A stretch of 64,000 bases of DNA from the NCBI GenBank assembly GCA_021234155.1, contig JAJEKV010000144.1, positions 1,116,001 through 1,180,000 on the forward strand, written 5' to 3'. The translations under genes and the position numbers were made by a program. The notes beneath the pieces were generated by a model. The model saw only the letters and a program-made list of their open reading frames with translations. It had not been told where the DNA came from and did not search any database. Position 1 is the first letter of the stretch. Every line of letters begins with the position of its first letter. Positions 2,879 through 54,877 of this stretch are shown here, in pieces. The stretch comes from Isoetes taiwanensis (Eukaryota > Streptophyta > Lycopodiopsida > Isoetales > Isoetaceae).

Positions 2879-2881
2879 TCT

Positions 2882-2900: not shown

Positions 2901-2912
2901 CCAACCTGGTTC

Positions 2913-4377: not shown

Positions 4378-4384
4378 AACCTTT

Positions 4385-6133: not shown

Positions 6134-6283
6134 TATTGAAGCCATAGTCAAGATGAAATTTTAGTTGAAGACACGCACACATCATCTCCACCATTGGTCA
6201 ATCAAATCCTCGACCGTCCGATTTAGGGTGCGGTCCATTACACAACATTATAATATAAGATTGCACCCACTTATAGAAAGAAG

Positions 6284-8764: not shown

Positions 8765-8840
8765 CCTAAGGCTAAGATATGCAGATGGGCTTGTAAGATT
8801 CAAGAATATGATATTGTTGTTAAAGTGATTAATTTGGTAA

Positions 8841-10473: not shown

Positions 10474-10496
10474 ACCTTGTTGTTTAGATGTTAGAG

Positions 10497-10708
10497 TAGG
10501 CAGTGTGTTAGATAAAAGTGTTTTTTTTTTGCAAATGCAATAGGTATTACTCTTAAAGTTCTGATTTATCTTAAGTTAGTTCATTTATAGCAATTGATAA
10601 ATAGAATAGGCAGTGTGTTAGATAAAAGTGTTCCTTGCAAATGCAATAGGTATTATTCCTTAAGTGTTGATTTATCTTAAGTTAGTTCATTTATAGCAAT
10701 TGATAAAT
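10497..10708. repeat. ~105-bp tandem duplication after pol
   Basis: The block beginning taggcagtgtgttagataaa occurs at about 10497 and again at about 10605, ending with the shared word agcaattgataaat. The copies differ by a poly-T run and a few bases. It is non-coding. Confidence 0.85.
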
Positions 10709-11001
10709 TAACGTCCTTGGTTCTAATGTGAAGTTGCAGAAAATGCTTATTTCAGGGCTACAAGTCCATGAGGCTCAGGTTTGTTTCTTCCTAATATTAT
10801 ACTTTACCATGCAGGATCACCCTCTTGATTTCACCTTACACATTTATTCATTTCCCAGCCATTCACCTTGATGAGCATGCTGTCTTCACTTCCACCACCA
10901 GACAGCATTTTATGCTAACCTTAATTGATTTTGTATAACAGGTACACCCTCTGCTCTTCATTCATAAACCTTCCATTCTGTTCAAGAGTAGTCCACCATT
11001 C

Positions 11002-12090: not shown

Positions 12091-12104
12091 GTAGTCCACC
12101 ATTC

Positions 12105-13349: not shown

Positions 13350-13360
13350 GAAAAAAGAGC
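13350..13360 (+). other. Polypurine tract
   Basis: The run gaaaaaagagc lies directly against the start of the 3' LTR, where plus-strand DNA synthesis of LTR elements is primed. Confidence 0.55.
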
Positions 13361-14842
13361 TTATATTGACCTTCTAAATGGCCTTCTTGGGGAGCGTGCC
13401 TTATTGAAAAAATGGTAAAACCTACCTACATCTACCCCCATCTATCTACCCTCTCATCCTCTGCCAAGTGGCGTCCCCCCTGGCATGCCAAGTCGAAACA
13501 CGAGCCGAGCTTGGCGTGGGAGGAGACCACGTAATCAGAAAACGAGGCAATGGATCTATATTTATACCTTGGCTTTTTTTTCCATCCCGGCCTGTGGGAT
13601 ATTTCTTCGCAAGAAAAATCAAGAACCCTAAGATTTGCAGGCCAAGAAACGGATTTTTAGTAGCTGGAAACTACCTAATCATGACTATATCCTCCCGATT
13701 TAACCTGAGTGATCCCAAGAACCCCAAATCTGTGCTAAACGACGGAAATCTGTTGGATCTTGCAAGAATTGGAACAGAACAGAGCATTTTCAAAAGGGGG
13801 GCAAATCGACTAAGGAAATTTCAAGGGCTTTTGCGCATTTGGGAGATTGTTGATACGAAATACATGTCAGTGCGATCTTCTGCTTGTGAATTCGACCTTC
13901 CTTGCTGCATCAATTTACTCGATTGAGCAGTAAAGCTGACCAAATATTCTGTCCGATCCCGGAAGTATTATTGACTCCTGAATTGTGAGTTATTTGAAGT
14001 TATGTGAGACTCCTGTTATGATTGTCAAGTGAATGAAAATCCGACTTTGGTATAATTCTCTTTTCTCAACTTCCTTTTCAAGGAAACTTATGCATATCTG
14101 CTAAATATCCTTCTAGTTTTTAATTCCATTGAATATTAGAAAAATCCTGCTTAGGCTTCAAAGGAATAGTCATCCTTTAAAAATATAAACATTAGTCAAA
14201 GCTAAGTTCTAGTTATCTGATAAGAGTCAAAACCTATCTTTTCGCTATAAATCCCTCTAACAAAAGGTCCAGTCCATCTATTATTATCAAGACCCCAGTA
14301 ATTCTCTTTTATTTTGTCTCAGGAAAAGCAAAACATCTAGATAAATATCTCTGTCATCAAAAAACACAGTCTGTCAGTGGCAAATTACTCTCTGTTCATC
14401 CAGCATTCTAAATAAACCCCAAGAAGATGTTGCACGTTACCTACAAGAGCAATTTGATCAGTCACAGTTGTCCCAGATCAAAAATAATATTTCACAAAAC
14501 ATCTGAGAATTTCTGCTCTCTGCCGAGGGTATTGACCAGTTTTTGACTAGGTCAGGCATATATTTTTCAAGTATCTAGAACAGTCTGACTTCAAAAAAGG
14601 TCTTGCACTTTTTTAATACTATTTGTTGGGATCACATTCATACATTTTTCAAGATAAAACCTCCAATTATTTGCACTTGGTATTGAAAAGAGGAAACAAG
14701 GTTTTTTCTTGAAATGGGAAAGCTGTATAACAGGCTTGTGGTGAGAAGTTTTTGCAAAATTTAGGTTCAGAGTGGTTGCCTGAAGCAACCTGGAGGTCCT
14801 AAACCATTCTAGTTGAGGGTTTTGCCAGGATTACCCTCAACA
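13361..14842 (+). repeat. 3' LTR of the left retrotransposon
   Basis: Second copy of 1379-2878, shorter by about 18 bp, chiefly through a 15-bp deletion near 14175. The TATA-like word is at 13557-13566. The 152-aa frame at 13468-13926 is open only because a 1-bp difference removes the stop present in the other LTR; I do not call it a gene. Confidence 0.88.
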
Positions 14843-18828: not shown

Positions 18829-20199
18829 CTAACCGGGTTCTGTTCGATGTTGTAGGAGTAGCACACTAGGATTAACTGATGAGGCAGCTGATGAAGCTAT
18901 CTCTGGAGGAACATTTGTAGCCAATGGCGCTGCAACCAGCAGACTCATGTTCATCCAAGAACCAATCTCATGGTCAAACACTGCAATGGCTAGGTCACGA
19001 TTCACTAGGATGACCTGCTCAAGGTTAGGAGCTAACTTCTTATGGCCGGCTGTGGTCGAAAGTGCCATAAGTGCCCAAACAGCCACCTCTGCTTCGGGTA
19101 CAATTGCCTTAGCAAAGAAGAGAATCTGTCTGCTTGTAAAAGCCGACAAGAAGAATCGGGTAATATGGCATTTCAACCCCTGAACCATCAGATGGGTTGA
19201 AGAGGCCAACTCGGACTCCAAGTTTTGGGGCAGCTCCTCTTCCATGGCAAAATCCTTCTCCTCCTGAGCATACTGACTCTCATCACATAAATCCTCCATG
19301 GTTGGGTCGTCTTCAATCTTGACGACGACGTCGTTGATGTTGGGCACATGTGGCCCCGTAGCCTGGAAAACCGATTCAGGAATTGAAGATGGGGTACCCC
19401 GAATCATTAACTGGCGTAAGGATAAGAGTGTGCTGATAGGCTCAACATCAAGAGGCTGATAGTTGAGCAGATGATATATCTCCGGCACATAAATGGGGCG
19501 AGAGTAGTCAATGAAGTCATGCTGGCTCTGACAATACTCGGCCAGCTCATAGAGAAGATGAGCGGTCTTCTGCTTACCCTTATTGGCGATATGCTGATAC
19601 GCCCATTGAATGTCGCTCAACAGCAAATAATCTTGATCCCCAACCTTGATGGTAGAAAGCGAACTTAAGCCGACGAGAGCTTGGCCCTTACTACGAGGTA
19701 GAGGCCTCTCTTTAGCTAATTCCTTCCATCTTACAAAGTCGGCATAGCTTATCTGCTCATCCTCCTCAGGATCTAGAGGAAGTGGGGACTTGGCTTGCTC
19801 TAAAGCGGTGTCAGTGCCGTCAACATACCTGTCCATAATAAGAGCAAGGGCAAACTGGGCCTCAAAGTACAGCCCATTAGAGCCACAATCAATAATGGGG
19901 GCGTGCTTAGCACGTCGGATAATGCCCTTAAGAATATCATAACTGTGGCGATCATCTCCAAACATGTGCTCTAAGCTATCCCTGTGAAGATAGGGTTGAG
20001 GCGGCTCCCCAAAAAACTCCGCCTCGGACAGGATTTCCTCATCATAGAACTCTAGGAAGGTTGCATAGTCAGGGTGTGCGCGCATGTTGTCGATGAGGTC
20101 GACCGTACACTGCAACATGGGGTCCAAGAGAGGGTAGGAAACCTGAGGATCCCATTGCTCGCCTCCCATGTACCATGCTAGTCGGCCAGCGTAGTCCAT
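18829..20199 (-). CDS. Unrecognised 456-aa protein beside the H3-like gene
   Basis: The frame is open from 20292, but the methionine at 20197-20199 (MDYAGRLAWYMGG) is preferred. The stretch before it is pyrimidine-rich, reads like a plant 5' leader (agggtttcatc...), and includes a possible acceptor ctgcag just before the start. A/T-rich TATA-like sequence lies at about 20320-20345. The protein is acidic, without a signal peptide or clear membrane segment, and contains segments RHSYDILKGIIRRAKHAP, SDIQWAYQHIA and VPEIYHLLNYQPLD. I recognise no domain. It follows the H3-like gene on the same strand, 279 bp away. It could be a captured host gene, an extra ORF of a retroelement, or a host gene. 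Confidence 0.55.
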   Translation of the reverse strand: MDYAGRLAWYMGGEQWDPQVSYPLLDPMLQCTVDLIDNMRAHPDYATFLEFYDEEILSEAEFFGEPPQPYLHRDSLEHMFGDDRHSYDILKGIIRRAKHAPIIDCGSNGLYFEAQFALALIMDRYVDGTDTALEQAKSPLPLDPEEDEQISYADFVRWKELAKERPLPRSKGQALVGLSSLSTIKVGDQDYLLLSDIQWAYQHIANKGKQKTAHLLYELAEYCQSQHDFIDYSRPIYVPEIYHLLNYQPLDVEPISTLLSLRQLMIRGTPSSIPESVFQATGPHVPNINDVVVKIEDDPTMEDLCDESQYAQEEKDFAMEEELPQNLESELASSTHLMVQGLKCHITRFFLSAFTSRQILFFAKAIVPEAEVAVWALMALSTTAGHKKLAPNLEQVILVNRDLAIAVFDHEIGSWMNMSLLVAAPLATNVPPEIASSAASSVNPSVLLLQHRTEPG

Positions 20200-20478: not shown

Positions 20479-21117
20479 TCATGGCCATTCCCCACGGATC
20501 CGGCGTGCCAACTGAAGGTCTTTTGTCATGATCGTTACTCGCTTGGCATGGATTGCACATAGGTTTGCATCGCCAAAGAGGGCCACCAAATAGGCCTCGG
20601 CCGCCTCCTGGAGTGCTAGAATGGCATGAGTCTGGAACCGAAGATCCGTCTTGAATTCTTGGGCAATCTCTCGGACCAAGCGCTGGAAAGGAAGTTTCTG
20701 TAGCAAAAACTCGGTGGATTTCTGGTACTTCCTTATTTCCCTAAGTGCCACGGTACCAGGCTTGTAACGATGCCTCCTCCTAAGCTGGGGTGCAGCTCCG
20801 GGAATAGTTTTCCCCGCTGTCTTTGGATGTCGGGCCTTTCGGATAATCTCGTCTCGCCGATTGCCCCCTGCAGCCTTAGCGATACTACCCCGAGCCCTAA
20901 GCTGATCCTTGTACTGAGCACCCGACTTACTGGGCGTCCTCTTCATCCTTCGGCGAGGAACACGAACTTCTGAAGGTGGCTGCTCTTGCCGGTGCCTTTC
21001 TTCCTCTTCTTTCCTCAGCCGCTCCTTTACGGCCTCTATTACCTCGTTCGCCTTCTGATCTGCTTCATCCTGCATTCTCTTCAGGGCTTGCTCCCGTTCT
21101 ACTTGCTGTCGTCCCAT
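20479..21117 (-). CDS. Histone H3-like variant with long coiled-coil tail, 212 aa
   Basis: Residues 118-211 are a complete H3 fold: aN ([15 protein letters not shown]), a1 ([12 protein letters not shown]), loop 1 (KTDLR), a2 through NLCAIHAK, loop 2 (RVTIM) and a3 ([11 protein letters not shown]). By eye it is about four-fifths identical to canonical H3. Loop 1 has no insertion, which argues against a CENH3 centromeric variant. The ~117-residue N-terminus replaces the usual tail. It starts with a charged heptad-like helix (about 5-45, rich in Glu/Arg/Lys), then a basic Pro/Ser region, and lacks the canonical ARTKQTARKS start. The ATG lies at the exact point where the Ty3 LTR homology stops (21118), so transcription from that LTR is likely. 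It is open throughout, with no intron or stop, and may be functional. Confidence 0.85.
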
Positions 21118-22603
21118 GCCTTCAATGGGACTCCTACATCGCGGAAGCGTGAATACATGTTAGCACACATCATAAATCATATATAAATAACCACCACGAA
21201 GGGTGGCACATCCATCCAAATACCACGGCAAAGAATATGCATCTAATCCTAAGGAAAACACCCCAAACCCATGGTTCTACCCCGGCTCAGACTCCAGTGA
21301 GGATCGACTGACGGCTAGGTCTCAAGAGATCAGCAGACCGAATCTTGACATGGCGTTGGCTGGCATAGAACATCGGCTAGGGTTATCCACTCCATCCGCC
21401 CCTCCTGTGCACACTTTCCAGATAAGTCGAATCATGCTATGGCTTCGCTATAGCCTTCCGGAGACGCAGGCTCGAGGTATCACCCTGCTGAGCCTACTCC
21501 AGGGTTCATGACGCCCCGGTCCAATGAGGCAGGTCAGGGAAGTGTCCCCTTCCAAGATCACAGTGGTTCCATGGGTGAGCTAGAGAATACGTGCCGCATC
21601 AGCGACCCCCGCATTCATACCCGACTTACTCACCCTAAATCTACTCAAAGTGCAAGGTGCTCCATACGGATCACACCTCTACACCCAGGGAGTGTCAGAC
21701 CCATACCCGGCCCTCTACGTGACTGGCTATGAGGCCTAGCCCTTTGTAGGAGTCTCGTGAGCCTTTTATGTTAGGTGCAAGACCCCACCCCCACTTCACC
21801 ACTTGTGTCCCTTCTGCGGTGCTAAGCCGGACCATAGCATCGACGACCCGATGGTCTCTTGTACACAGACCGCAACTAATAGGATAATACAGGGCTCTAT
21901 CTAGGAGCATACTACAATAAATGGGCTCAGAGGTCTCTACCCCAGTAATTCCCCATTTCAAGAGTAATACTATGCAAAGAGCTAACAATCCATCCTTTCA
22001 GAGCAAAACCAGAATCAGAATATAAAGAGAACGTACCTTTGCATTCAAGGGTTAGTTCCTACGAGTAAAGCACAGAGAGAACAGAAGAAGTAAACACTAC
22101 AAGTGCCCAACAGGGGCGCTACCCTAGAATGCACAGGCTATCCTAGCCACCCACCTGAGTTCCTGCTAGACCCGTTATCGTTTGGGGCTTCCATCTTCCT
22201 GGTCTTGGTGTTCTGCAGTGCTTGGTATGGTGGCGCTCAGTTGGACAGGGTAGGCGCTCAGCTCCTGCTCCTTTTTGGACGAATTTTGGGAGTTCATGAG
22301 GGATATGAATCAGGTTGACAGCCTAATTTGGAAGTCCCCATGCTGGCCAATCGATTTAGGCCAGGTGGCGCCTTCCCAAAGCATTAATTAACCTAATTAA
22401 TCCATTTGAACCTTAATTCCCTAAGTTATAGGTTATTATCTTTAATGATTAAATTAGCAATTTAATCCCTTTTAGGACAACCCCCTAGGTTACAGTACCC
22501 CCTGGCCATGGTGGCGTACCTTTAATGGGTGACGTGTCGGTATATTTATACGTATACCATGTAGATACGTTACGCATACCGTATAAATACGTGGAACGTC
22601 ACA
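21118..22603 (-). repeat. Ty3 LTR (copy A), 3' end replaced by the H3-like gene
   Basis: Read on the minus strand it begins TGTGACGTTCCACG at 22603 and matches LTR C (53278-54877). However, it stops about 155 bp before the true LTR end, at gaaggc, after which the H3-like ATG begins. A possible 5'-UTR intron is visible on the minus strand: donor gcaaag|gtacgt near 22035, acceptor cgatgtag| near 21135. It is the left arm of the inverted duplication. Small frames here (21203-21732, 21695-21988, 22103-22318) are LTR translations, not genes. Confidence 0.8.
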
Positions 22604-22741
22604 ATAGTCCTCACTGGAAGGTCGTGGTGTATAGAGATCGTTAGAGCCATACCCTTGACTGAAGGCGTAGACCCAACCAAGGGAGACAAGAGGCGAGAAC
22701 TTTGCCTCCTTGTCAAATCAGGTACAGGTGAAGAAGGAGCC

Positions 22742-23090
22742 TCAGCCGTGGTCACAGAACTCAGGATCTGTGGTCAAGGTGTGCTCTATATGTTTCCCAA
22801 ACTCACTGGTGAGTGTGGAAATCGCATTACAATGGGTTCGGGTCACCAAGGGATGGCGTGATAAAGCATCCGCAACCACATTGTGCTTGCCAGGCTTATA
22901 CATAATCTCAAAATCATACTCCTCGAGAAATTCCATCCATCTTCTCTGACGGAGGTTGAGATTCGGTTGGGTGGATAAATAACAGAGACTCTGATGATCT
23001 GTATCCAACTGGAATCTTCTACCGAGAAGGTAGTGTCTCCATATCCGCAGAGCACGGATGCGTCTGGCATTCTCGAGTTTGTTGGGGCGT
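22742..23090 (-). pseudogene. pol fragment (RNase H end to integrase start)
   Basis: The minus-strand frame encodes the tail of Ty3 RNase H ([36 protein letters not shown]), nearly identical to 47130-47370. At 22742 it jumps to a short 3' leader and the LTR, so integrase has been deleted. The same deletion junction is present in the inverted copy at about 53141. Confidence 0.85.
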
Positions 23091-24589
23091 TGCTTGGTTG
23101 TTAGGGATGCGGAGATGGAGTTAGTGCAAGTAATTTGTTGATTATGACGTTACCATTTGAATTGCAGTTTTTTTCTGAGAACTCCAGGGTATGGGAATCA
23201 GGGAAGGCTCCGGACAGAGCAGGGTTTATCATCCGCCCTCGATTTTGTGAAGGGTAGAGCTTGGGGGACCGATCTGAAAGCAAAGAACGATGGAAAAATG
23301 GTGAGCGTTATTGTATTGGTTGAGTGGTTTGATTGTACGAAATTGTGTCATGGTCACATCTTATGAGTAGAGGCATGGACGAAAGTTATGGAACCCTGTG
23401 CAGACATCGGCCGAATCTGCGGCCATTGCCACTACCAAAACCCTTCTCTGACGAAACGGCCCCTTGGGTCCCAAGGTCAAATTTCTTTGCCTAGCTTGAT
23501 TCGAACGAAGGTCCCAAAACTCAACCAAAGGCTTCCTATCAACGAACACAGGTACGGTCTTGGCTTAATTGGTAATCCAACGAGTCTTTCTAATCGCTCA
23601 GTTCATTTACAAGGCAGTCACTGGGTCAGTCACTGGGCTTCCTTCCCTTTCTTCATTGAATTCCTTTGCCTGCTTTTCTATGTTTTATGTTTCAATTTCT
23701 CAAGGAACCCACTTGCTGGCCTTTCTTCCCTTTCTGCATCGAATCTAAGCTATGCCAGGTCTTGGGTTTGGGTTCCTTCGCCAGCTTCCCTATGTTGTGT
23801 GCTTCTTTGTCTATGAATGAACTATGGACTAGTAATGGGTAGGTACAGATATCGTTTTTTATTTTATTTTTTACCATGTCTTTTGCTCTTTCCATGAGCT
23901 TGTTTTTGCATTGTATTCATATCCTTATAAACTTTTATAATGTGACTTTTTGGAGGACAACCTAGAGTCGTATGTAGCAATGCTATCCGTTTGTATAAAT
24001 TCCCTAAAATTGAAAATAGAAGTAAAAGTCAAAACATCAAATTCAAACTCAACAAATATTTTTATAGGATGGAGGATCTCGTGAGTTACTTACATGCCAA
24101 ATTTGAACTCAAAATTGATCTCTTTCTGAAAGTTGTTGTTTTTATATCACTACTTTCTGGGAACCAGTACTGGTTCTCAGAAGGCAAAGGACAGTTTTGA
24201 CCCTGTCATGTTTGAATTGCTCTATCTTCCTTCACAGACTTCGAACTGAGATGTGGTTTTTTGTGCCTTGCTCTATATCTCGTATAGAAAAATAACATTA
24301 TAACCAAAAAAATCAAAAAGATCTTTTTGTTAAGACAGTTTTACTTTGTGTGAACATAACGCTTTTGGTACCTGACCCCCTTGGGTTTACTAGAGCATAA
24401 CTCACAAGAATGGGAGCTGATACATTTTTGTGTATTTTTCATGTGAAGCACGACTGGCATATATGAACTCCTGGAAAGGGTTTGGCTAGCTTTTGTATTC
24501 TTAGTTTTATATGATTTTTCTTGTGAACCTTCAAAATGCCCTTTAATGGTCCATCATGAGACAGATCTAGTGTTAAGATTAGAAATTGT

Positions 24590-24780
24590 AAAAAGTTAGC
24601 TCCCAAATGGATAGGACTTTTTGAGATCGTTGAAAAAATAGGTATTCAATCCTATAAAACTCGACCTTCTTGTGCATCTTAAAGTCCACAAGGTCGTTCA
24701 TGTAAGCTTTTTGCAAAAACATACAAACCGAGGAGATGCAACCCAGAGTAATCATAGCACAACCTATTTTAGCCTATCTG
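24590..24780 (+). pseudogene. Relic of a chromovirus integrase C-terminus
   Basis: In shifting frames the plus strand reads LAPKWIGLFEIVEKIG and HLKVHKVVHVSFLQKH, matching the KLAPRWAGPF ... HLKVHKVFHVSLLKRH part of the integrases at 48390-48535 and 62640-62800. It is short and broken. It lies at the outer end of the inverted duplication; the mirrored copy is at 51123-51310. Confidence 0.7.
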
Positions 24781-24844
24781 TTTGTTGTGCAATCACCATA
24801 GAATTCCATCCGTTCGTATTTTTTTGCCAGTGGATTCAAATACA

Positions 24845-36536: not shown

Positions 36537-36760
36537 ATTTTGACAGCTCCAGTTGGGGTTTCCTTCGTATTAAGATAATAACCAAACAAGCTCCTCCAGA
36601 TTGCATATTTAGCCATGGCAGGAACCATCAAGATAACAATGAAGCCAGCCACGCTCATCAAAAGGTTAGCCAAGGTTAATTGTCGAAGACCATGATCCAC
36701 GCACAAGATGTTGAAGGGTCGACCTCTTAGTTTTCGATTCCATTGGGTCATTGTATGCAC
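36537..36760 (-). CDS. Possible exon of a membrane protein
   Basis: A minus-strand frame contains one strong hydrophobic helix (LANLLMSVAGFIVILMV, then PAMAKYAIW). It ends at a consensus donor AAAAT|GTAAGT at 36537/36536. The continuation and the start are not identified, and no family is recognised. It could be a decayed exon. Confidence 0.25.
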
Positions 36761-38320
36761 TTTTATGTAATTTTGATTGGCATTACCTTTAGTGAGCCAT
36801 CACGTAATCTATGTACTCTTTTCTTATATATATATTCAGGGTATTTCTTTGTATCTTCTTGTACTATTGGAAAGCATTGAATTGTCTTTTCTCTTCAATG
36901 TCCAATTCTCTTCCTTAAAGTGGGAGTGTAGAAGAATTGTTCCATGTATATATATTTACTCCTGTCGTCTTGCAGAAGAGACACTCGAGGAGTACGAAGA
37001 GAGGATCACCGACCAGATAAGAAGGGATGATCAAGGGCCTCCCGAACAAGATTACGGCCAAAGATATGGGGAGTACCCAGAACGAGAATATGACTATGAC
37101 ATGGATGAACCCGAGGAGCCGGAAGAGCCTTATAATCCAGACAAGGGTATGGAGGTAGTTAACCAGGGAATAAATTACTAATCGCATATTTCTTATTAGC
37201 CAGAATGACTTTAGCTAAACTTGCACGATATTAATCCCAAAACTTTCTTTGGTTTAGCTAAACTGTACACATTTTTCCTCTCATACTTTCTAGCGTTTAG
37301 CTAAACTAACCCAAACATCATCCCAAGAATTTCTATGGTGTGACCAACTGAAAATATTAAGCCAAATTACTATAATACTAGTTATGGTGCCCGGCGTTGC
37401 CGGGCTTTAGCAAATGTGCATTGTAGAATGGTTTTGCATTAGTAGGCTTTAGAATAGTGCCATAAGGATGTCATGAGTGAATTGGCATTTGTAAACTTTA
37501 AGCTCCACAACAACAGGTGTGCACGGATTTGGGAGTCGATGGAATTCCAATTTTGAATCTCGCAAGGATCTACTCCTTTTTCAAGTAGTTTTGGGCCATT
37601 GACAATTCAATTAGAAGTTGAAGTTTGAACATAAGGCGTGTTTTTATTGAAAGGGACGATAATGTACTTATGTTGTTTGTGTAGAGTTTTCATATTATGG
37701 GAAGTTATTGGTGGATTAGTTATCTATTGTTTAAGTTTGGTTTTTCTTTGTCGTTTTATGAGAGACCACATAACCCAATCGAATTTTATAGGTGGGCAAT
37801 TGCACTATTGAATATTAAATAAACTTATAATTTTATCAGTGCTTGTATTGCCTATTTTGGGTTTGCATATGGAAAAATCATATTCGAGCTATATTGCATT
37901 TGAAGATATGGATCCAGTTCTGAATATGCACATGATCTTCAGAAGAGAGGATTTTCTGATATAAAAGCAATAGTAAGTGTTTCCAATAATTGCATCACCA
38001 ATTCAAGTTCTCAAGTGATGAATAGAAAGTCTTTAACACTATGCTTGTAAAACATATGAACATTTGTCAAATTTCATTTCGAATAAAGAGCTGGCTGTAT
38101 TTTCTGAATAGTGCCCCACATCTCAGAGACAAACAGTTGTGAGCCCATAAGCCATCAATTGCCTGCTTTCCGCTTATTTTCAGGCTAAAAGGGAAACCCT
38201 TTTTGCATGGCCCTGCGGAACTATCATGCCAAATAAACACCAATAACCACATACAACCAGAAAAATAGTTGCATGTTGTCAATAGTCCAAAGTATGTCAG
38301 AGGGTCAAGATGTTAATCAG

Positions 38321-42091: not shown

Positions 42092-43791
42092 TTAGCATGA
42101 AGGTGTACATCTGTTTGCCCTCATAGCTGTTTGTTCAGCACATGCATCAAGGATAGAAAGATGCAGATAACAACAAAGATGGGAAAGCAGAAGTCCAATA
42201 CCTGAGAAAGAATAGACAACGAAGGTTTGGCCACATCGATCTATGTTTTCTTCTCAAAAATATCGGTGGAGCTGCCAAGGACATGAAACTGCTACATCCA
42301 ATGCCCTGCAAAACTCAGAGTATCAGTAAAGCATTAGCATTTTCCACCTGAAATATGGTTGAACTCTGGAAAAGCACATATATTATGAGCTATAGACCTC
42401 TTCTCAAATCCTATATTGGAATCTTGCAGCCAAATTCTTTCAAAGTAGATTTTTCGCATATCCCTGATCTAAATGGCAAAGTTATTAAAGAGAAACAAAG
42501 GAAGAAACTTACGTCTGAAGTCCATAATCGATGTCCAGCTATGTCTGCACCTGAGATAAATGCGCAAAGTTGTAAGAAACGCAACAGATCAAAATCAGAA
42601 GCAGCAAAGCGAAGGAGTCTCATTTCCAAGAACACTACAAAAGATATTATTGCCAAGATTGAATGCAAGAAGACCTTTGGGTCCTTTGCAGTTGCTAAGC
42701 ACAGCCTCTACATACATCTAGTGAATACTTGCATCTATTAACCAAGAGGGTTTTGGTGCATTTCAAGCCATAGCAGACTTAGAAATTCTGACATTTACCA
42801 ACTATATGCCTCTAAATGCTTGATATGTTTGCTCCCAGCATAGACATGCATGATTATTACGGCCGATGCGAATTCGTATCTTCTCATCTACCCATTTCAA
42901 GAAGAAACCTAAATTACCAACAAATCTAACGGCATGCCGCCTTGACAGCTGTTGAAAGGGATGCTAAAAGTTCGGCATGGATACGGCAAACCCAAAATTG
43001 AGGATTTGCCACAAACCCGATTTTTAGGATACCGTTAATTTTTCCGGCCGCCAAAACCTTCAAAAATCAAGTTAAAAGAAAAATCTAAAAAGTTTTTGGG
43101 GTGTCGGAAAAACCAAATTTAAACAATAGATTTTTCAATATATTTCATCATTTTCTTTGTGAAAACATTCTAAAATAATGCTAACTAGCAAAGTCTAGAA
43201 CTCAAATTAATTCATAATGCTAGAAACTAAACTACTAATCTTATATTTCATATAAACTAGAACGATGTTAGCTAAACTAGCCCGAAATTCATTCTAAAAG
43301 TTTCTATGGCTTAGCTAAACAATACAAAATTTCACTCTCTTACTTTCTAGCGTTTGGCTAAAGAGCTCCAGGGTTGGTGCAGTCCCGAAAAAAGTTAAGC
43401 TAAAATTATTTTTTTTTTTCCAATTTTTTCCATTTACTTTAGCCAAATTTTTTTGAAAATGTGCTAAAAAATCGCCAAATAGCTAAGTTTAGCCCTTAAA
43501 TTATTCCATGTAGTTAACATCCTCAGAGAACGGGCCTTTGACGACCTGAAACAGACCCTTCGCCGCACATGGAACTATTGGAGTATGTCCAGGCACGAAG
43601 CTTTTGAGGATGCCAACGACCACCTCTGGCAAATCTTCTATGCATTAAGGAGGCTTTTCAATCTCCTTATTATTAGCCCCACATGGGACTACCAGCCTGT
43701 CATCGTCCAGGCCTGGGCACGTTACAAGCTCGTCAGAGCTGTACGTGAAAGCGTTCGCTATTCCATCATGTACCCCTTCGCGAACCCCTAG

Positions 43792-44015
43792 GTCCGGACG
43801 CCCTCAGTTTTGTCTTGTTATGTTTCAGTGTGACTAAGAAAGTGGCCCATGTATAAAATCCACTTGTGTATTATATGACTTTAAGTTGATAACTATCGTC
43901 AGTGTGAAGTTCTTCTATGTAACAGTTGTTTTGACTTATAATCAAAATCTTTTCTCTTGTCTTCTCTTATTCACTCTTACTTCAATACTACCCCAAAATG
44001 ATCTGATTGTGAGAC
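43792..44015. other. Spacer before the chromovirus gag
   Basis: A/T-rich, no LTR, primer site or domain visible. A possible acceptor caatatag lies at about 44055, just inside the following frame. Confidence 0.4.
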
Positions 44016-45194
44016 TTGATGTTGTTGAAATTCTGCTTATATCTTCTTATGCTCAATATAGACGGTGCACGCAACGCCGCCTGGCAGACACCCTCGAATG
44101 CCAGTAGGTTAACCCCTGAGCAGGAACTCATGTTGATGAAGAGGCAACTAGTTGAGTTGCAGACTTATGTGATGAATATCAACCCACCGCAGCATGCCCA
44201 GGAGGATGGACCAGAGTTACCTCCGTTACCGCCAAGTCCCCCACCACAACAACCTTCTGCACCTGATTCCAGTCCTGCACCCGTACCGAGGAGGCACCGT
44301 TCCAAACGGCATCGAAGTTCCTCTAGGGACAGTGCAACATCCTCCCAGCCAGCTTCTTCTGAGTCTTCTGAGTCGTCGGTGTCATCCGGTGGCCATGTAC
44401 ATCGCCGGGACAAGGAGTACCGTAAAACGGTTGATACAGCCATAAACAGTATCTGGAAAAATAGGAAATTGGCCCAATTTGATGGTAAATCTAGAGGTGG
44501 GCTGAATGCGGAGTCCTGGCTCGACGAGATGAAGGAGTTTGGGAAATCCTATGGAATGACAGAAAAGGACACAGGGAAGGTTGCCACCACAAACCTTACA
44601 GGAGCTGCCCGTATTTGGTGGAAGGGCTATGCTAGAGCCAAGCACCTGGATAGGAGCAGGTGCAAGTTCAAAAAGTTTGCCAAGGCTTTTAAGTCGCATT
44701 ACGTGCCTCGTGCGCACAAATGCCAACAAATCCAGACCTTCTACAGGTTAGAGCAGAAGGGGATGTCAGTTCAGGCCTACACTGATGAATTCATGCGCCT
44801 GAGGCTGTACGTACCAGGGATGAATGAAAAGAGGGCGGTGGAGGGCTACATTGAAGGGTTGGCCCCATCCATTAAACGAATGGTTAAGGCCATAGACCCA
44901 AAATCAGTTGCAGAAGCTGAGGCTAAGGCGTTAAGCCTCAAGGAGGACACACCAAGGAACCAGTATCCGCGTCCTGGTCCTTACTCGCAGCCACGCCTGT
45001 CCACACCTTACAAACCCCGTTCCCCAAGTCCGGGGCCCTCTTAACAGAACTCCTACAACCGCCAGGAGAAGAAAGTCACCTTCAGTACGCCCGATAAACA
45101 GAATAATGTTGGCAAGGAAGTTCGGAACCTTTTACAGTCTATTCCTAAAGAGGCCCGAGAACAGCTCCGCCGAGATAAGGCATGCTACAGGTGT
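44016..45194 (+). pseudogene. gag: Chromovirus gag with in-frame stop
   Basis: The frame has a proline/serine-rich N-terminus with RRHRSKRHRSSSRDS. The Retrotrans_gag domain includes WLDEMKEFGKSYGM, ARIWWKGYARAKH, FAKAFKSHYVPR, YRLEQKGMSVQAYTDEFM and YIEGLAPSIKRMV. A TAA at 45042-45044 interrupts it, but the same frame continues into the zinc knuckle [14 protein letters not shown] (45184-45225) and then protease. In relatives gag and pol share one frame, so the stop is a nonsense mutation or a readthrough site. It packages RNA in cytoplasmic particles when intact. Confidence 0.85.
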
Positions 45195-48109
45195 ATGCGA
45201 CCCGGCCATTTCATGCAGAATTGTCCTTATGTCACGCAAACTGCCCAGCTGGCTATGGCTGACCTCGATTGGGACGATCTTGAGTCAACACTACCTGCAG
45301 AGGAGGACGCTCCCGAGTATATTCACGGTGCGTCTCATATCCTTGCAGCTATAGAAACCGGCAATGCTGAAAGTCAGCCTTCTGTTATTTCCACCATAGG
45401 CCAAGTAGACAGTAAGCCTTTCATAATTTTGATGGATACGGGTAGTACACATAATTTTGCTTCTCCTAGAATGGCCCAAGTACTGCAGCTTGAAACGTTG
45501 AGATCCCGACCAAAGCCAGTCACGTTAGCCAGTGGCAAGATCAGGCACACTCATGGCCGCCGCATTAACCTTAAGATGCAGTTGCCAGGTGCACCAGTTG
45601 CCTTGGGTGCCGAGTTAATGGACATTGGCAAATATGATCTTATTGTTGGAATGGAATTCTTGGCATCCGCAAAGGCCAATATAGACTGTGAGAAACGAGA
45701 GGTTACCTTCAACGCCGCTAACGGAGCATGCGTGACAATAAAAGGTGATCCATTCAACCCTATTATGCAGTCTATATCTATCGCGCAGTTAGAAAAAGCG
45801 TTACGCAAGGAAAAGCTCCTTTGCGTCATTAGACTTGCCTCTATTGAGTCAGATGCTAAGCAAAAGCAAGTAATTGACACCTTGCCGGAAGGGATTGCTA
45901 ACCTTCTCCGAGAATTTAGCGATCTTTTTCCAGATGAGATTCAAAAGCTTCCTCCTTTTAGAGGGGTAGAATGTGAGATAGCTCTAGAACCAGGTACTAA
46001 GCCTACCAGTAAGGCCCCGTACCATATGAGTCCTCCAGAGTTGGCAGAGCTTAAGAAGCAACTTCAGGAGTTACTAAACCTAGGTTTCATTTGGCCTAGT
46101 GTTTCGCCTTTTGGCGCCCCTATCCTTTTTGTTAAGAAAAAGGATGGCTCCTTGAGGATGTGTATTGATTATAGGCAGCTCAATAAAAAAAGGATGGCTC
46201 CTTGAGGATGTGTATTGATTATAGGCAGCTCAATAAGCATACCATCAAGAATCGGTATGCTTTGCCTAGGGTAGATGATCTAATGGACCAGTTGCAAGGG
46301 GCCAAATATTTCTCAAAGATTGATTTACGCTCCGGATACCATCAGATAAGGATAAAGGAGGAGGACATCCATAAATCTGCTTTTCGCACGAGATATAGCC
46401 ATTATGAGTTTACCGTTATGCCTTTTGGATTAACTAATGCTCCTGCAACTTTCATGCGGTTGATGAATGACGTCTTCCGCCAATACTTGGATGATTTTGT
46501 TGTTATTTTCTTCGACGACATTCTCATCTATAATAAATCTTTGAAGGAGCATGAGCAACATCTTAGGTTGGCCCTACAAAAGCTAAGACGCCATCAGCTC
46601 TTTGCCAAGTTCTCTAAGTGCAAGTTTGCGACTCCCAAGGTGGATTATTTGGGGCATATCATTTCAGCAGAGGGAATTGCTACGGATCCAGCAAAGATAG
46701 AAGCAGTAAGGGATTGGCCTATTCCGGGTAATGTTTCGGAAGTCCGGAGTTTCTTGGGACTAGCGAGATATTATCGGAAGTTTGTGAAGGATTTCACAAC
46801 GATTGCCGCACCTCTTACTGATCTCACAAAGCACGAGAAGGTGAAGGATTGGATGGAACATTGGAAAACAAAAGTCCAGGTAGGTTTCCAGAAGCTTAAG
46901 GATGCTTTAACGTCAGCGCCAGTCCTCACTTTGCCCGATCCTGAAAGGGACAAACTAGTAGCAACGGATGCTAGTAAGATTGCTACCGGTGGAGTCCTAA
47001 TGCAGGAGGGGAGGGTTATTGCCTATGATTCAAAGAAAATGAATGAGACGGAGCAGCGATACCCCACCCATGATCAGGAATTGTTAGCAGTTGTCCGCGC
47101 TCTGCGGATTTGGAGACACTACCTTCTTGGTAGAAGATTTCAGCTGGATACGAATCATCAGAGTCTCCGCTATCTATCCACCCAGCCAAATCTCAATCTC
47201 CGTCAGAGAAGATGGATGGAATTCCTGGAGGAATACGACTTCGAGATTATGTATAAGCCTGGGAAGCACAATGTGGTTGCGGATGCATTGTCACGCCATC
47301 CTTTGATAACCCGAACCCATTGTAATGCAATATCCACACTCACCAGTGAGTTTGGGAAATAAATAGAACTGACCTTGGCCACAGATCCCGAATTCTGTGA
47401 TATTTGGGGTAGTTTGAGTAAAGAAGCACGCACAGACAAAGAACACGAAGCTTTCCGTTCGTATAAGAAAGAGGGCAACTTGTTATATTGCAAAGATAAG
47501 TTGTGTGTACCTGAGACTTCAGGAGTGCGTAAGCTAATTCTCCATGACACACATAACAGCCCTATAGCTGGACATGCAGGTTTTATGAAGACCTACTTTA
47601 AGATCCGCTCCAGTTATTTTTGGCCTTCGATGAAGAAGGATATCGCTAGATATATTAAGCAGTGTCAGGTGTGTCAACAAACCAAGGCTGAGCAATTAAG
47701 AGTTCCAGGAGAGTTGCAACCTTTGGATGTGCCCAACGCAAAGTGGGAGGTGATAACCATGGACTTCATTGTGGGCCTTCCACGTACTCTCCGTGGATAT
47801 GATGCATTGATGGTAGTGGTCGACAAATTGTCGAAAATGGCTCATTTCTTGCCATGTCGTACCACCGACACCGCCCTGCTATTTGCAAAGGAGATTTTCA
47901 GATTGCACGGAATGCCGAGAGTTATTGTATCCGACAGGGATCCCAAATTTGTAAGTGCATTCTGGAAGGATTTCTTCGCCACCATCCAGACCAAGCTTGC
48001 TATGAGTACGGCCTATCATCCTCAAACGGATGGTCAGACAGAACGTACCAATCGCATTATCGAAGATATGCTACGAAGTTATGTGTGGAGTAAAATCACA
48101 ATGGGCTGA
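45195..48109 (+). pseudogene. pol: Chromovirus pol: protease, RT, RNase H, integrase core
   Basis: Protease has [12 protein letters not shown] starts at [20 protein letters not shown] and has [21 protein letters not shown] and active site FFDD. RNase H shows [15 protein letters not shown] and the downstream DTNHQSL. Integrase has the HHCC module (HDTHNSPIAGH ... CQVCQQTK) and catalytic motifs MDFIVGLP, SDRDPKF and GQTERTNR. Three lesions are visible: a 50-bp tandem duplication in RT (46137-46236) that shifts the frame, a TAA at 47360-47362 where the related copies have CAT, and a frameshift near 48090. It is inactive. Confidence 0.88.
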
Positions 48110-48317
48110 CTATATTTATCTGGTAGAGTTTTGCCTATAACAGCATGAAACAAGAGTCTTCCAGGATGTCTCCCTTTGTGATAAATTATGGATATCAATG
48201 TCTTACCCCAGACACATGGCATAACCCTGGATGTTTCTCAACAACTCCTTCTGGAAATGCAAGCTTTGGTTGAAGAAGTCCGTGGTTACTTATTAGCTGC
48301 ACGCAGTCGGCAAAAGA

Positions 48318-49037
48318 GTGTCGCGGATACGAGTCTTCCAGGTGGGCGAATCGGTTTGGCTTAAGATCAAAGTAAAACAAGCCAAGCTTAAGATTGGTAA
48401 CTGCAAGAAGTTGGCACCCAGATGGGCTGGGCCGTTCAACATTACTGAACGTGTTGGAGAACAGGCATATCGCTTGGATTTGCCACCCCGCTTGAAGATC
48501 CACAAGGTCTTTCACGTGAATCTTCTGAAGCAACACACCCCTGATCCTGAGGAGGTTTTGGATACCCCAACCCTCCTAGAAATGACAGAGGAGCAGCTGG
48601 AGATAGTGCCTGAAGCTCTCCTTGATCGAGCTTATAAACAAACCAGAACGACTCAAATGTTGCAATACTTGGTTAAGTGGAAGCACTTACCAGTTGAGGA
48701 TGCTACCTGGGTGATGAAGATAGACCTTGACAAGCACTATCCGGACTTCATGCGGGAATCTCAGGGCCGCACCATCAACGATGCTATCAACCCCGCTCCC
48801 GGCGGTAAGCTTGAATGCTTGATTCGCTGCGAATCATGCAGTAGAGGGGTAGATGCATCGTATCTAATAATAGTTACTGATGATGAGATCACCTTCGTGT
48901 TCTCTAGGGCGTGGTGTATTGTTGATGTTGACATGACCGCGATTTGCTTGGAAAGAATACAGTTGATAGGCTGCATTCATCTCGGCTATAATGGGAACTT
49001 GACCATTCCTTATGCCACAATGAATTGCAAACTATAG
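48318..49037 (+). pseudogene. Integrase C-terminus with chromodomain-like tail
   Basis: This continues the broken integrase in another frame: KLAPRWAGPFNITERVG, HKVFHVNLLKQHTPDPEE, LLEMTEEQLEIVPEALLD and QYLVKWKHLPVEDATWV. The last is a chromodomain-type segment (YLVKWKG--...-TWE in the family). Such tails target chromovirus integration to marked chromatin (family knowledge). Sequence after about 48790 looks unrelated to the family. Confidence 0.75.
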
Positions 49038-49492: not shown

Positions 49493-51102
49493 TGTGACGT
49501 TCCACGTATTTATACGGTATACGTAACGTATCTACATGGTATACATATAAATATACCGACACGTCACCCATTAAAGGTACGCCACCAGGGGGTACTGTAA
49601 CCTAGGGGGTTGTCCTAAAAGGGATTAAATTAGCTAATTTAATCCTTAAAGATAATAACCTATAACTTAGGGAATTAAGGTTCAAATGGATTAATTAGGT
49701 TAATTAATGCTTTGGGAAGGCGCCACCTGGCCTAAATCGATTGGCCAGCATGGGGACTTCCAAATTAGGCTGTCAACCTGATTCATATCCCTCATTAACT
49801 CCCAAAATTCGTCCAAAAACGAGCAGGAGCTGAGCGCCTACCCTGCCCAACTGAGCGCCACCATACCAAGCACTGCAGAACACCAAGACCAGGAAGATGG
49901 AAGCCCCAAACGATAACGGGTCTAGCAGGAACTCAGGTGGGTGGCTAGGATAGCCTGTGCATTCTAGGGTAGCGCCCCTGTTGGGCACTTGTAGTGTTTA
50001 CTTCTTCTGTTCTCTCTGTGCTTTACTCGTAGGAACTAACCCTTGAATGCAAAGGTACGTTCTCTTTATATTCGATTACGGTTTTGCTCTCGAAAGGATG
50101 GATTGTTAGCTCTTTGCATAGTATTACTCTTGAAATGGGGAATTACTGAGGGGGGTAGAGACCTCCGAGCCCATTTATTGTAGTATGCTCCTAGATAGAG
50201 CCCTCAGATTATCCTATTAGTTGCGGTGCAGGTACAAGAGACCATCGGGTCGTCGATGCTATGGTGCGGCTTAGCACGGCAGAAGGGACACAGTGGTGAA
50301 GTGGGGGTGGGGTCTTGCACGAACATAAAAGGCTCCCCGAGACTCCTACAGGTGGGCTAGGGCCTCATAGCCCGGGCCACGTGAGAGGGCCGGGTATGGG
50401 TCCGACACTCCCCGGGTGTAGAGGTGTGATCCGTATGGAGCACCTTGCACTTTGAGTAGATTTAGGGTGAGTAAGTCCTGTATAAATCGGGTCGCTGATG
50501 CGGCGCGTATTCTCTAGCTCACCCATGGAACCCTTTGTGATCTTGGAAGGGGACACTTCCCCGACCTGCCTCATTGGACCCGGGAAGGCGTCATGAACCC
50601 GGAGTAGGCTCGTGCAGAGAGGGGTGATACCTCGAGCCATGTCTGCGTCTCCTTGGGAAGGCTATAGCGAGGGGTAGAACCATAGCATGATTCTCGTGGA
50701 CTTATGCAAAGTGTGCACAATGGGAGGGCGGATGGAGTGGATAAAAATTTTTGAAAAAAGCTTTAAAAATGTTCTATGCTTTAGCCTTAAAAGCGCCATG
50801 TCAAGATTCCTTAGATCTGTGATTTTGTTTATTCAAATATATGATCTCTTGAGACTTATTTATCCGTATGGTCGATCCTCACTGGAGTCCGAGTTGCATG
50901 GGGTAGAACCATGGGTTTGGGGTGTTTTCCTTAGGATTAGATGCATATTCTTTGCCGTGGTATTTGGATGGATGTGCCACCCTTCGTGGTGGTTATTTAT
51001 ATATGATTTATGATGTGTGCTAACATGTATTCACGCTTCCGCGATGTAGGAGTCCCATTGAAGGCATGGGACGACAAGTAGAACGGGTAGACAACAAGTA
51101 GA
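49493..51102 (+). repeat. LTR B, ending in an H3-gene stub
   Basis: It starts TGTGACGTTCCACG and follows LTR C for most of its length. Near 50640-50880 it departs: an extra stretch and a ~60-bp block (cttagatctgtgattttg...) match 35655-35720 instead of LTR C. At 51060-51087 it does not continue into the normal LTR end but into the first bases of the H3-like gene (gaaggcATGGGACGACA), then a short duplicated word (acaacaagtagaa) and the junction with the inverted copy at 51103. Frames inside are not genes. Confidence 0.75.
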
Positions 51103-54100
51103 ATGGTGATTGCACAACAAACAGATAGGCTAAAATAGGTTGTGCTATGATTACTCTGGGTTGCATCTCCTCGGTTTGTATGTTTTTGCAAAAAGCTTAC
51201 ATGAACGACCTTGTGGACTTTAAGATGCACAAGAAGGTCGAGTTTTATAGGATTGAATACCTATTTTTTCAACGATCTCAAAAAGTCCTATCCATTTGGG
51301 AGCTAACTTTTTACAATTTCTAATCTTAACACTAGATCTGTCTCATGATGGACCATTAAAGGGCATTTTGAAGGTTCACAAGAAAAATCATATAAAACTA
51401 AGAATACAAAAGCTAGCCAAACCCTTTCCAGGAGTTCATATATGCCAGTCGTGCTTCACATGAAAAATACACAAAAATGTATCAGCTCCCATTCTTGTGA
51501 GTTATGCTCTAGTAAACCCAAGGGGGTCAGGTACCAAAAGCGTTATGTTCACACAAAGTAAAACTGTCTTAACAAAAAGATCTTTTTGATTTTTTTGGTT
51601 ATAATGTTATTTTTCTATACGAGATATAGAGCAAGGCACAAAAAACCACATCTCAGTTCGAAGTCTGTGAAGGAAGATAGAGCAATTCAAACATGACAGG
51701 GTCAAAACTGTCCTTTGCCTTCTGAGAACCAGTACTGGTTCCCAGAAAGTAGTGATATAAAAACAACAACTTTCAGAAAGAGATCAATTTTGAGTTCAAA
51801 TTTGGCATGTAAGTAACTCACGAGATCCTCCATCCTATAAAATTTGATGTTTTGACTTTTACTTCTATTTTCAATTTTAGGGAATTTATACAAACGGATA
51901 GCATTGCTACATACGACTCTAGGTTGTCCTCCAAAAAGTCACATTATAAAAGTTTATAAGGATATGAATACAATGCAAAAACAAGCTCATGGAAAGAGCA
52001 AAAGACATGGTAAAAAATAAAATAAAAAACGATATCTGTACCTACCCATTACTAGTCCATAGTTCATTCATAGACAAAGAAGCACACAACATAGGGAAGC
52101 TGGCGAAGGAACCCAAACCCAAGACCTGGCATAGCTTAGATTCGATGCAGAAAGGGAAGAAAGGCCAGCAAGTGGGTTCCTTGAGAAATTGAAACATAAA
52201 ACATAGAAAAGCAGGCAAAGGAATTCAATGAAGAAAGGGAAGGAAGCCCAGTGACTGACCCAGTGACTGCCTTGTAAATGAACTGAGCGATTAGAAAGAC
52301 TCGTTGGATTACCAATTAAGCCAAGACCGTACCTGTGTTCGTTGATAGGAAGCCTTTGGTTGAGTTTTGGGACCTTCGTTCGAATCAAGCTAGGCAAAGA
52401 AATTTGACCTTGGGACCCAAGGGGCCGTTTTCGATCGAGAAGGGTTTTGGTAGTGGCAATGGCGCAGATTGGCCGATGTGCGCCGCGGGGTTCCATAACT
52501 TTCGTCCATGCCTCTACTCATAAGATGTGACCATGACACAATTTCGTACAATCAAACCACTCAACCAATACAATAACGCTCACCATTTTTCCATCGTTAC
52601 TGCTCGTATCAGCGTCCGGTGCTCTACCCTTCACAAAATCTGAGGGCCGGATGATAAACCCTGCTCTGTCCGGAGCCTTCCCTGATTCCCATACCCTGGA
52701 GTTCTCAGAAAAAAACTGCAATTCAAATGGTAACGTCATAATCAACAAATTACTTGCACTAACTCCATCTCCGCATCCCTAACAACCAAGCAACGCCCCA
52801 ACAAACTCGAGAATGCCAGACGCATCCGTGCTCTGCGGATATGGAGACACTACCTTCTCGGTAGAAGATTCCAGTTGGATACAGATCATCAGAGTCTCTG
52901 TTATTTATCCACCCAACCGAATCTCAACCTCCGTCAGAGAAGATGGATGGAATTTCTCGAGGAGTATGATTTTGAGATTATGTATAAGCCTGGCAAGCAC
53001 AATGTGGTTGCGGATGCTTTATCACGCCATCCCTTGGTGACCCGAACCCATTGTAATGCGATTTCCACACTCACCAGTGAGTTTGGGAAACATATAGAGC
53101 ACACCTTGACCACAGATCCTGAGTTCTGTGACCACGGCTGAGGCTCCTTCTTCACCTGTACCCGATTTGACAAGGAGGCAAAGTTCTCGCCTCTTGTCTC
53201 CCTTGGTTGGGGTCGCCTTCAGTCAAGGGTATGGCTCTAACGATCTCTATACACCACGACCTTCCGGTGAGGACTATTGTGGACGTTCCACGTATTTATA
53301 CGATGACGGCGTAGCGTATCTACATGGTATAACGTATAAATATACCGACACCGTCACCCATTAAAATACGCCACCATGGCATGGGGTATCAGTAACCTAG
53401 GGGTTGTCCTAAAAGGGATTAAATTGCTAATTTAATCATTAAAGATAATAACCTATAACTTAGGGAATTAAGGTTCAAATGGATTAATTAGGTTAATTAA
53501 TGCTTTGGGAAGGCGCCACTGGCCTAAATCGATTGCCAAAGCATGGGGACTTCCAAATTAGGTCTATCAACCTGATTCATATCCCTCATGAACTCCCAAA
53601 ATTCGTCCAAAAGGGGCGAGGAGCCGCGCCTACCCCGTCTAAGCGGCGCCACCATACCAAGCACTGCGAGAACACCAAGACCGGGAAGATGGAAGCCCCA
53701 AGCGATAACAGGGTCTAGCGAGGAACTCAGGTGGGTGGCTAGGATAGCCTGTGAATTTTAGGGTAGCGCCCCTGTTGGGCACTTGTAGTGTTTACTTCTT
53801 CTGTTCTCTCTGTGCTTTACTCGTAGGAGTTCTCTTTATATTCTGATTCTGGTTTTGCTCTGAAAGGATGGATTGTTAGCTCTTTGCATAGTATTACTCT
53901 TGAAATGGGGGAATTACGGGGGGGTAGAGACCTCTGAGCCCATTTATTGTAGTATGCTCCTAGATAGAGCCCTGTATTATCCTATTAGTTGCGGTCTGTG
54001 TACAAGAGACCATCGGGTCGTCGATGCTATGGTCTGGCTTAGCACCAGAGAAGGGACACAGTGGTGAAGTGGGGGTGGGGTCTTGCACGAACATAAAAGG

Positions 54101-54722
54101 CTCCTGAGACTCCTACAGTGGGCTAGGCCTCATAGCCGGTCACGTAGAGGGCCGGGTATGGGTCTGACACTCCCTGGGTGTAGAGGTGTGATCCGTATGG
54201 AGCACCTTGCACTTTGAGTAGATTTAGGGTGAGTAAGTCGGGTATGAATGCGGGGGTCGCTGATGCGGCACGTATTCTCTAGCTCACCCATGGAACCACT
54301 GTGATCTTGGAAGGGGACACTTCCCTGACCTGCCTCATCGGACCGGGGCGTCATGAACCCTGGAGTAGGCGTCTCCGGAAGGCTATATTGAAGCCATAGC
54401 ATGATTCGACTTATCTGCAAAGTGTCCACAGGAGGGGCGGATGGAGTGGATAACCCTACCCGATGTTCTATGCCAGCCAACGCCATGTCAAGATTCGGTC
54501 TGCTGATCTCTTGAGACCTAGCCGTCAGTCGATCCTCACTGGAGTCTGAGCCGGGGTAGAACCATGGGTTTGGGGTGTTTTCCTTAGGATTAGATGCATA
54601 TTCTTTGCCGTGGTATTTGGATGGATGTGCCACCCTTCGTGGTGGTTATTTATATATGATTTATGATGTGTGCTAACATGTATTCACGCTTCCGCGATGT
54701 AGGAGTCCCATTGAAGGCGTGG
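51103..54722. repeat. Right arm of the inverted duplication
   Basis: Reverse complement of 21118-24799: an uncharacterised segment (51103-52800), the pol fragment (52815-53141, plus strand, ending in the same deletion junction) and most of LTR C. It has more small indels than the left arm, for example in the LTR start (cgatgacggcgtagcg), and diverged blocks around 52435-52495 and 52600-52635. Confidence 0.88.
52815..53141 (+). pseudogene. pol fragment (RNase H end to integrase start), inverted copy
   Basis: Same content as 22742-23090: [35 protein letters not shown] and the start of the integrase leader (TSEFGKHIEHTL), then an abrupt switch to the 3' leader at about 53141. This shows that the integrase deletion preceded the duplication. 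Confidence 0.85.
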
Positions 54723-54877
54723 GCCGAATGACACCTCCGTGTCCTTCACTCGGGCATCTTTCCATAGATGGCCCGGTATAGACGGAGGGCCCTGCTCATG
54801 GCGAGATGGTCGTCATGGGAGGGGAAAGTCCCCGTATGTATACGGCTGGGGGTCGTATATATTCAGGGAGCGTCACA
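53278..54877 (+). repeat. LTR C (complete), 1.6 kb
   Basis: Begins TGTGGACGTTCC (one extra G relative to LTR B) and ends GGGAGCGTCACA, so the ends carry the short inverted repeat TGTGACG/CGTCACA. The last ~155 bp (54723-54877) are absent from copies A and B. Frames at 53873-54067 and 54130-54633 lie inside the LTR and are not genes. Confidence 0.82.

Follow-up and report, generated by a model that had tools for sequence, protein, structure and literature searches.

A histone H3 fold in ORF1 of a Ty3 chromodomain retrotransposon family from Isoetes taiwanensis

A 64,000-nucleotide stretch of the Isoetes taiwanensis genome (in the following called the window) contains an open reading frame with a histone H3 fold that begins at the very point where an LTR breaks off. 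The question that this locus raises is whether a host histone gene has come under the control of an LTR or whether the histone belongs to the retrotransposon itself. The preliminary description of the locus favored the former and regarded the frame as an intact H3 variant with its own coiled-coil N-terminus and with the LTR as promoter. Comparison with further loci of the genome indicates instead that a Ty3 retrotransposon family with a chromodomain encodes the H3 as the C-terminal module of ORF1, its first long gene, and we put the probability of this reading at about 0.9.

The H3 frame beside the truncated LTR

The frame (ORF1-delta; 20479..21117, minus strand) spans 226 codons from stop to stop and encodes 212 amino acids starting from an LTR-derived ATG. 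Residues 97-208 (20494..20829, minus strand) comprise the complete histone H3 fold including the contact residues (Pfam PF00125, 1e-42), as had been claimed before, and H3 chains of the PDB match the protein with up to 180 bits. A protein search with the 212-residue sequence was saturated by H3 proteins (best 120 of 7,984 listed). On the same strand lies ORF2 (18829..20199), the second accessory gene of the element, with 456 amino acids and no significant Pfam match. Its amino acid identity to ORF2 of locus L019 is 44%, and at the nucleotide level the segment 20392-18836 is 87% identical to L046. On the other side the frame adjoins LTR A (21109..22603, minus strand). It shares its start, TGTGACGTTCC, with the LTRs of L015, L019, L028 and L045; within the window, LTR B matches it at 89% identity and LTR C at 92%. 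LTR A lacks its last ~150 bp; LTR C (53282..54877, plus strand) has a complete 3' end and reaches ~150 bp beyond the stop of LTR A, to the ...CGTCACA terminus found in complete elements. The break of LTR homology at the ATG is therefore real.

The closest relative that we fetched is L038, which together with its flanks L045 and L046 shows the order LTR, ORF1 of 451 amino acids, ORF2 and gag. The window matches the LTR of L038 up to position 21113 (base 513 of L038), and the match to ORF1 resumes at 21109 (base 2002), with 3 bases between the alignments. At this junction (21109..21113, minus strand) ~1.49 kb are missing with reference to L038, namely the LTR end, the PBS region, the leader and the N-domain. 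Because the LTR and ORF1 alignments flank this gap, the frame of the window represents a longer gene of which the C-terminal half is left. It corresponds to the C-terminal 209 amino acids of an N-domain/H3 fusion, with 85.6% amino acid identity to ORF1 of L038 over 209 residues and 88% DNA identity in the H3 part over 631 bases. The ATG is LTR sequence; the window reads GGCATGGG where LTR C and the LTRs of L015, L019 and L028 have GGCGTGGG or GGTGTGGG. Judged by these alignments, the window copy arose from the ORF1 gene of the element by deletion. The preliminary description was thus confirmed for the H3 frame and the truncated LTR, and its terms "intact" and "own N-terminus" had to be given up: the coiled-coil segment is a remnant of the ~330-residue N-terminal part of ORF1. 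The contact between LTR and H3 is a deletion scar, and the H3 forms the 3' part of a gene that belongs to the element itself.

The end of LTR B (49493..51087, plus strand) carries the identical LTR/ORF1 junction at 51066-51087 with 13 bp of ORF1, followed by a pol relic. The deleted form is therefore present at least twice, and this speaks against an isolated assembly error; a unique junction, named beforehand as a sign of such an error, was not what we found. An assembly artefact was ruled out by this common junction and by the presence of the gene inside complete elements elsewhere. We also dropped the idea of an unrelated young LTR inserted beside an old H3 relic, as L038 has the same LTR-ORF1-ORF2 order and differs by one clean deletion.

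LTR A and LTR B both come after pol-derived sequence. The pol relic occurs twice in opposite orientation, at 51103-53250 and as a rearranged 97.7% copy upstream of LTR A (22631..24799, minus strand), each time running into an LTR, and looks like a copied unit. LTR A is 91% identical to the L015 LTR over the 3' 1.1 kb and 82% over a further 236 bases, and 83-86% identical to the LTR of L038. LTR A is thus nearer to L015, unlike the H3 and ORF2 of the window, which are nearer to L038, so that an exchange between element lineages may possibly lie behind the window copy. On the minus strand 3' of ORF2 no gag-pol match of the family was found, neither in the remainder of the window nor in the adjoining 10 kb (L029), and the window copy is therefore a fragment.

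A body with gag, protease, RT/RNase H, integrase and chromodomain is located on the plus strand (43511..49037), with LTR B as its 3' LTR. Its nucleotide identity of 82-88% to L015, L028 and L031 makes it a member of the H3 element family. Pfam detected gag and protease as well as RT, RNase H, integrase and Chromo, in agreement with a gag-PR-RT-IN order with chromodomain. Two of the three aromatic residues of the HP1 methyl-lysine cage are presumably missing in this chromodomain (48297-49037, YLVKWKHLPVEDATWV); the loss of cage aromatics has been described for group II chromodomains. The N-domain, the H3 and ORF2 have no match on the plus strand anywhere in the window, including the part upstream of this body. 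The spacer that follows ORF2 in L046 was identified at 36697..37163 (plus strand), and the match continues at 43511 past an insertion of ~6.3 kb. This insertion (37163 to 43511), which splits the plus-strand chromovirus, contains two head-to-tail units of ~1.6 kb with 97% identity (39354-42665).

Two other features were noted in the window. A different LTR element on the plus strand (1379-14842) has LTRs at 1379-2878 and 13361-14842 with 97.7% identity, frames for gag, RT/RNase H and integrase by Pfam, and an extended run of pyrimidine-rich sequence (~4390-6140). A possible DNA element (56413-59903) is characterized by a frame with HTH and DUF7869 (58092-59279). It also has a direct repeat of 114 nt at 56861-57328 and, at 56413-56597, an inverted repeat of 88 bp that is perfect.

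The H3 gene in the element family

The genome (1.658 Gb, 1110 contigs) was searched with the Pfam Histone profile PF00125, and the best 150 of 8,704 loose candidates were scored. All 150 exceed the family cut-off. Fifteen reached 164-165 bits, and the eight of these that were fetched are all canonical H3. The remaining 135, the window copy included, reached 144-155 bits and have open frames of up to 494 amino acids. As a lower bound, at least 134 loci besides the window belong to this score class. From these we chose 32 by hand among the matches ranked by H3 score, 20 with 10 kb each and 12 with ~2 kb each. An N-domain is located upstream of the H3 in 30 of the 32 loci, i.e. in all 12 short loci and in 18 of the 20 long ones, where it starts with MPRFKLT...; L016 has no N-domain and L021 shows H3 only. 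ORF2 comes after the H3 in 17 of the 20 long loci. In 18 of the 20, gag-pol lies downstream in the same orientation, a number that rises to 19 with the next stretch of L019. The linkage of H3 to a retroelement, first proposed for the window, recurs across the genome.

The element has the order 5' LTR, PBS, leader, ORF1, (ORF2), gag-pol and 3' LTR. Three LTR pairs were checked, and perfect 5-bp target-site duplications flank two of them. The pairs L015/L030 and L019/L031 have LTRs of the type TGTGACG...CGTCACA with the duplications CAATC and CCATT, and their K2P distances are 0.029 and 0.034, respectively. The LTRs of the third pair, L028/L032, are 79% identical (K2P 0.114). Neither a matching end nor a target-site duplication was found for this pair and a diverged integrase lies behind it, so L028/L032 may not be a single element. 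Directly 3' of the LTR end L015, L019 and L028 carry TGGTATCAGAGC, and in L015 the 5' LTR is immediately followed by GTGGTATCAGAGCC; we take these sequences to be the complement of tRNA-iMet and thus the primer-binding site. Of the 20 loci of 10 kb, 14 contain the exact 12-base PBS (15 of the 24 loci scanned), and L038 has a variant of it. ORF1 starts 713 nt (L019) and 721 nt (L015) from the start of the PBS. Pfam identified gag, PR and RT in L015, and matching pieces of IN and chromo are located downstream of RT in L015 and L031. The family that carries the H3 is a Ty3 LTR retrotransposon with a chromodomain integrase.

The insertion L015 (3822-8097, with L030) is complete with both LTRs and the duplication, and its ORF1 passes directly to gag. 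ORF2 can therefore be absent in cis and ORF1 can travel alone. Extra ORFs occur in plant LTR elements, such as ORF1 of Ogre/Tat.

ORF1 of this family (~450 amino acids) consists of an N-domain of ~240 residues, a linker, a basic stretch and the complete H3 fold. The linker is Q-rich, except in the lineage of L038, where it is a charged coiled coil. An ORF1 unbroken from the N-domain start is found in only 8 of the 20 loci, with lengths of 417-459 amino acids (446 for L022, which continues past the usual stop). In-frame stops were counted in 1 of 20 rows for H3 with tail, 4 of 18 for the N-domain, 7 of 17 for ORF2, 11 of 19 for gag-PR and 5 of 12 for RT. For the N-domain (residues 1-260 of L019 ORF1) no match at E<=0.001 was found among 5.8 billion proteins by a method that requires shared 5-residue words; the window ORF2 likewise had no match at this level among the best 7,998 candidates by shared 5-residue words. 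Pfam at E<=10 yielded one chance match for five pieces of the N-domain and ORF2, and in the PDB neither protein had a sequence match at E<=1. A profile comparison indicated no relation between ORF1 and ORF2. The AlphaFold models were poor (mean pLDDT 41 for ORF1 and 40 for ORF2), and a fold search with the poor ORF2 model gave no match at E<=0.001.

Conservation and descent of the element H3

The H3 of the element aligns to the host H3 without gaps over 98 codons. CENH3 has a longer loop 1 than canonical H3, and a CENH3 identity was ruled out because the alignment contains no loop insertion. For the residue analysis the 20 long loci and the window were located by the motif LCAIHAKRV, a requirement by which none of the 21 rows was lost. 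All 21 copies keep H39, T45, R49, K53, K56, K79, T80, D81, R83, L90, E97 and N108 as well as C110, H113, K115, R116, T118, K122, D123, Q125, L126, R129 and R131. Including the 12 further loci, C110, H113, R116, D123, L126 and R129 are kept in 33 of 33 copies; these are presumably the residues facing H4 and the second H3 in the nucleosome. Among the 12 further loci, N108 is replaced by S in L043 and Q125 by A in L044. In comparison with the host H3, T107 is exchanged for A in all 21 copies. The exchanges S87 to F, E105 to S and R134 to F are found in 20 copies, and the window has H, G and W at these positions; R134 is retained in L038, L043 and L044.

The motif ARK[ST], which surrounds K9 and K27, is present in none of the 33 tails, taken as up to 75 residues before RPGT/KPGT and in several copies shortened by frame breaks. 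A residue-by-residue alignment of the tails is uncertain, and the absence of the motif is independent of it. The suspected lack of the canonical tail lysines is thereby borne out. The motif [KR][HYR]P occurs in 29 of the 33 tails and a TGGK-like motif in 22. The element protein resembles canonical and centromeric H3 in its complete fold, but its tail is replaced, ARKS/T is absent and an N-terminal extension of ~330 amino acids has been added.

Selection was estimated by pairwise dN/dS according to Nei-Gojobori; in the tail, N-domain, ORF2, gag-PR and RT sets, rows with fewer than 60 codons were dropped and the window was left out. The median was 0.044 for the H3 fold (20 copies, 190 pairs), 0.088 for H3 with tail (20 copies), 0.155 for the N-domain (18), 0.124 for ORF2 (17), 0.118 for gag-PR (19) and 0.124 for RT (12); these values stem from non-independent pairs and are raised by post-insertion decay. 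The H3 value is inflated towards conservation because the loci were picked by H3 score; the N-domain and ORF2 were not selected by this score, yet they are linked to H3. By these codon comparisons the H3 fold, the N-domain and ORF2 are under purifying selection comparable to that on RT. Between element and host H3 the synonymous sites are saturated (pS 0.88).

A tree was calculated from 33 rows and 97 columns, comprising 24 of the 33 element H3s, two host H3s and seven external sequences, the latter being those of 120 proteins that passed the length filter. All 24 element H3s fall on one side of a branch with 99/96 support that was present in 100% of 200 bootstrap trees; this grouping is a clade only if the root falls on the other side of the branch. 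Within it, 20 sequences form the main group, the window joins L038 and L043 (100/96), and L044 is separate. The tree topology is consistent with a single capture of an ordinary H3 that then diversified within the element into at least three lineages. The N-domains of L038, L043 and L044 are 32-38% identical to that of L019 and their H3s 71-73%, which illustrates a deep family diversity in one genome.

Possible roles of ORF1 and related systems

That a host H3 variant gene lies beside an LTR and uses it as promoter would agree with the open frame, the complete fold and the promoter orientation of the LTR. However, the same gene is found inside LTR elements elsewhere in the genome, and the window frame has its 85.6% counterpart over 209 residues in the second half of L038 ORF1, with the same ORF2 following. 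An ordinary host variant does not fit these copies inside complete elements, and we consider this explanation close to negligible. Of the earlier interpretation, the retroelement-linked H3 without canonical tail lysines is retained, and the LTR as a borrowed promoter of a host variant is not. Passive cargo is another explanation: a captured host H3 could ride along by transduplication and have no function for the element. Many copies in the genome are decayed, and amplification of H3 as cargo by transposable elements is described for fungi in PMC6710886 and PMC3538342. This reading is very improbable in view of dN/dS ratios far below 1 for the H3 fold, the N-domain and ORF2 (0.044, 0.155 and 0.124), similar to RT (0.124), and of the joint retention of N-domain and H3 across three diverged H3 lineages.

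Among functions for the element, our first choice is an escape from H3-based silencing, which we propose tentatively on the basis of the sequence features. ORF1, as the first long frame after the PBS, would be translated from the element RNA, and its H3 would pair with host H4 and enter nucleosomes. Such nucleosomes would lack the K9/K27 sites and display the N-domain, and chromatin containing them, devoid of H3K9 and H3K27 silencing marks, could allow the element to evade silencing. By its residues the element H3 is probably a nucleosomal H3 that is unable to carry these marks. As a second choice, ORF1 nucleosomes could serve via the N-domain as docking sites for the integrase. The family does possess a chromodomain integrase, in which the presumed loss of two of three cage aromatics would make another chromatin contact useful, but with a poor ORF1 model (mean pLDDT 41) and no fold assigned to the N-domain this steering of integration appears rather unlikely. 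Still more doubtful, and our third choice, is a packaging or nucleocapsid-like role of the H3 module for the cDNA or RNA of the element. The position of ORF1 before gag, as first long frame past the PBS, and the basic stretch before H3 would suit this role; in contrast, the retention of the presumed contact residues to H4 and the second H3 in 33 of 33 copies seems to exceed the demands of DNA binding alone. The broader proposal is that the family encodes its own nucleosomal histone, which has lost the sites of the silencing marks, bears a new effector domain and is incorporated into chromatin of the host or of the element, so that the chromatin of the element escapes the usual silencing or marks itself for the integrase; this is likewise a possibility that we rate well below even odds.

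The silencing of retrotransposons by chromatin acts largely via marks on the H3 tail. The family described here retains and diversifies an H3 of its own in which the tail sites are gone and the nucleosome contacts are kept. It enables a direct test of the idea that a histone supplied by a mobile element can serve to counteract silencing or to guide integration. If the proposed escape is true, a parasite would have evolved a histone variant that works against the histone code.

H3 genes carried by transposons are already known from fungi. PMC3538342 and PMC6710886 describe hAT transposons with transduplicated H3 (H3L) in Dothideomycetes, with 26 copies in Pyrenophora tritici-repentis, and according to the latter source Pseudocercospora fijiensis contains hundreds of hAT H3 copies inactivated by RIP. 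In both the fungal system and ours a transposable element amplifies an H3-like gene. The fungal H3L belongs to a DNA transposon with terminal inverted repeats, whereas we describe an LTR retrotransposon in a plant genome, with an H3 that has been joined to a new domain, has diversified and is subject to purifying selection. A hAT-borne H3L would be expected between terminal inverted repeats and with a hAT transposase; here the H3 is located between LTRs, together with RT and integrase. For an LTR element with a histone our limited search of the open-licence PMC literature found no example, and a report elsewhere is possible.

Additional domains in plant LTR elements offer a second comparison. 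In PMC9289625, Ty3 elements of Phalaenopsis are described as having acquired an AlkB/2-ODD m6A demethylase ORF, and a screen of 121 angiosperm genomes yielded 15 extra domains, nine of which are named in section 12 of that paper, none of these being a histone. These elements are similar in that a Ty3 LTR element retains an extra domain through subfamily diversification, plausibly acting on host control, and differ in the domain and in the element lineage. A review (PMC7264820), whose main text does not contain the word histone, places most extra ORFs of plant LTR elements between pol and the 3' LTR. Conserved ORFs beyond gag-pol are common to the elements covered by that review and to our family, in which ORF1 is instead placed before gag. 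Automatic annotation may miscount genes of this kind as host H3 or CENH3 variants.
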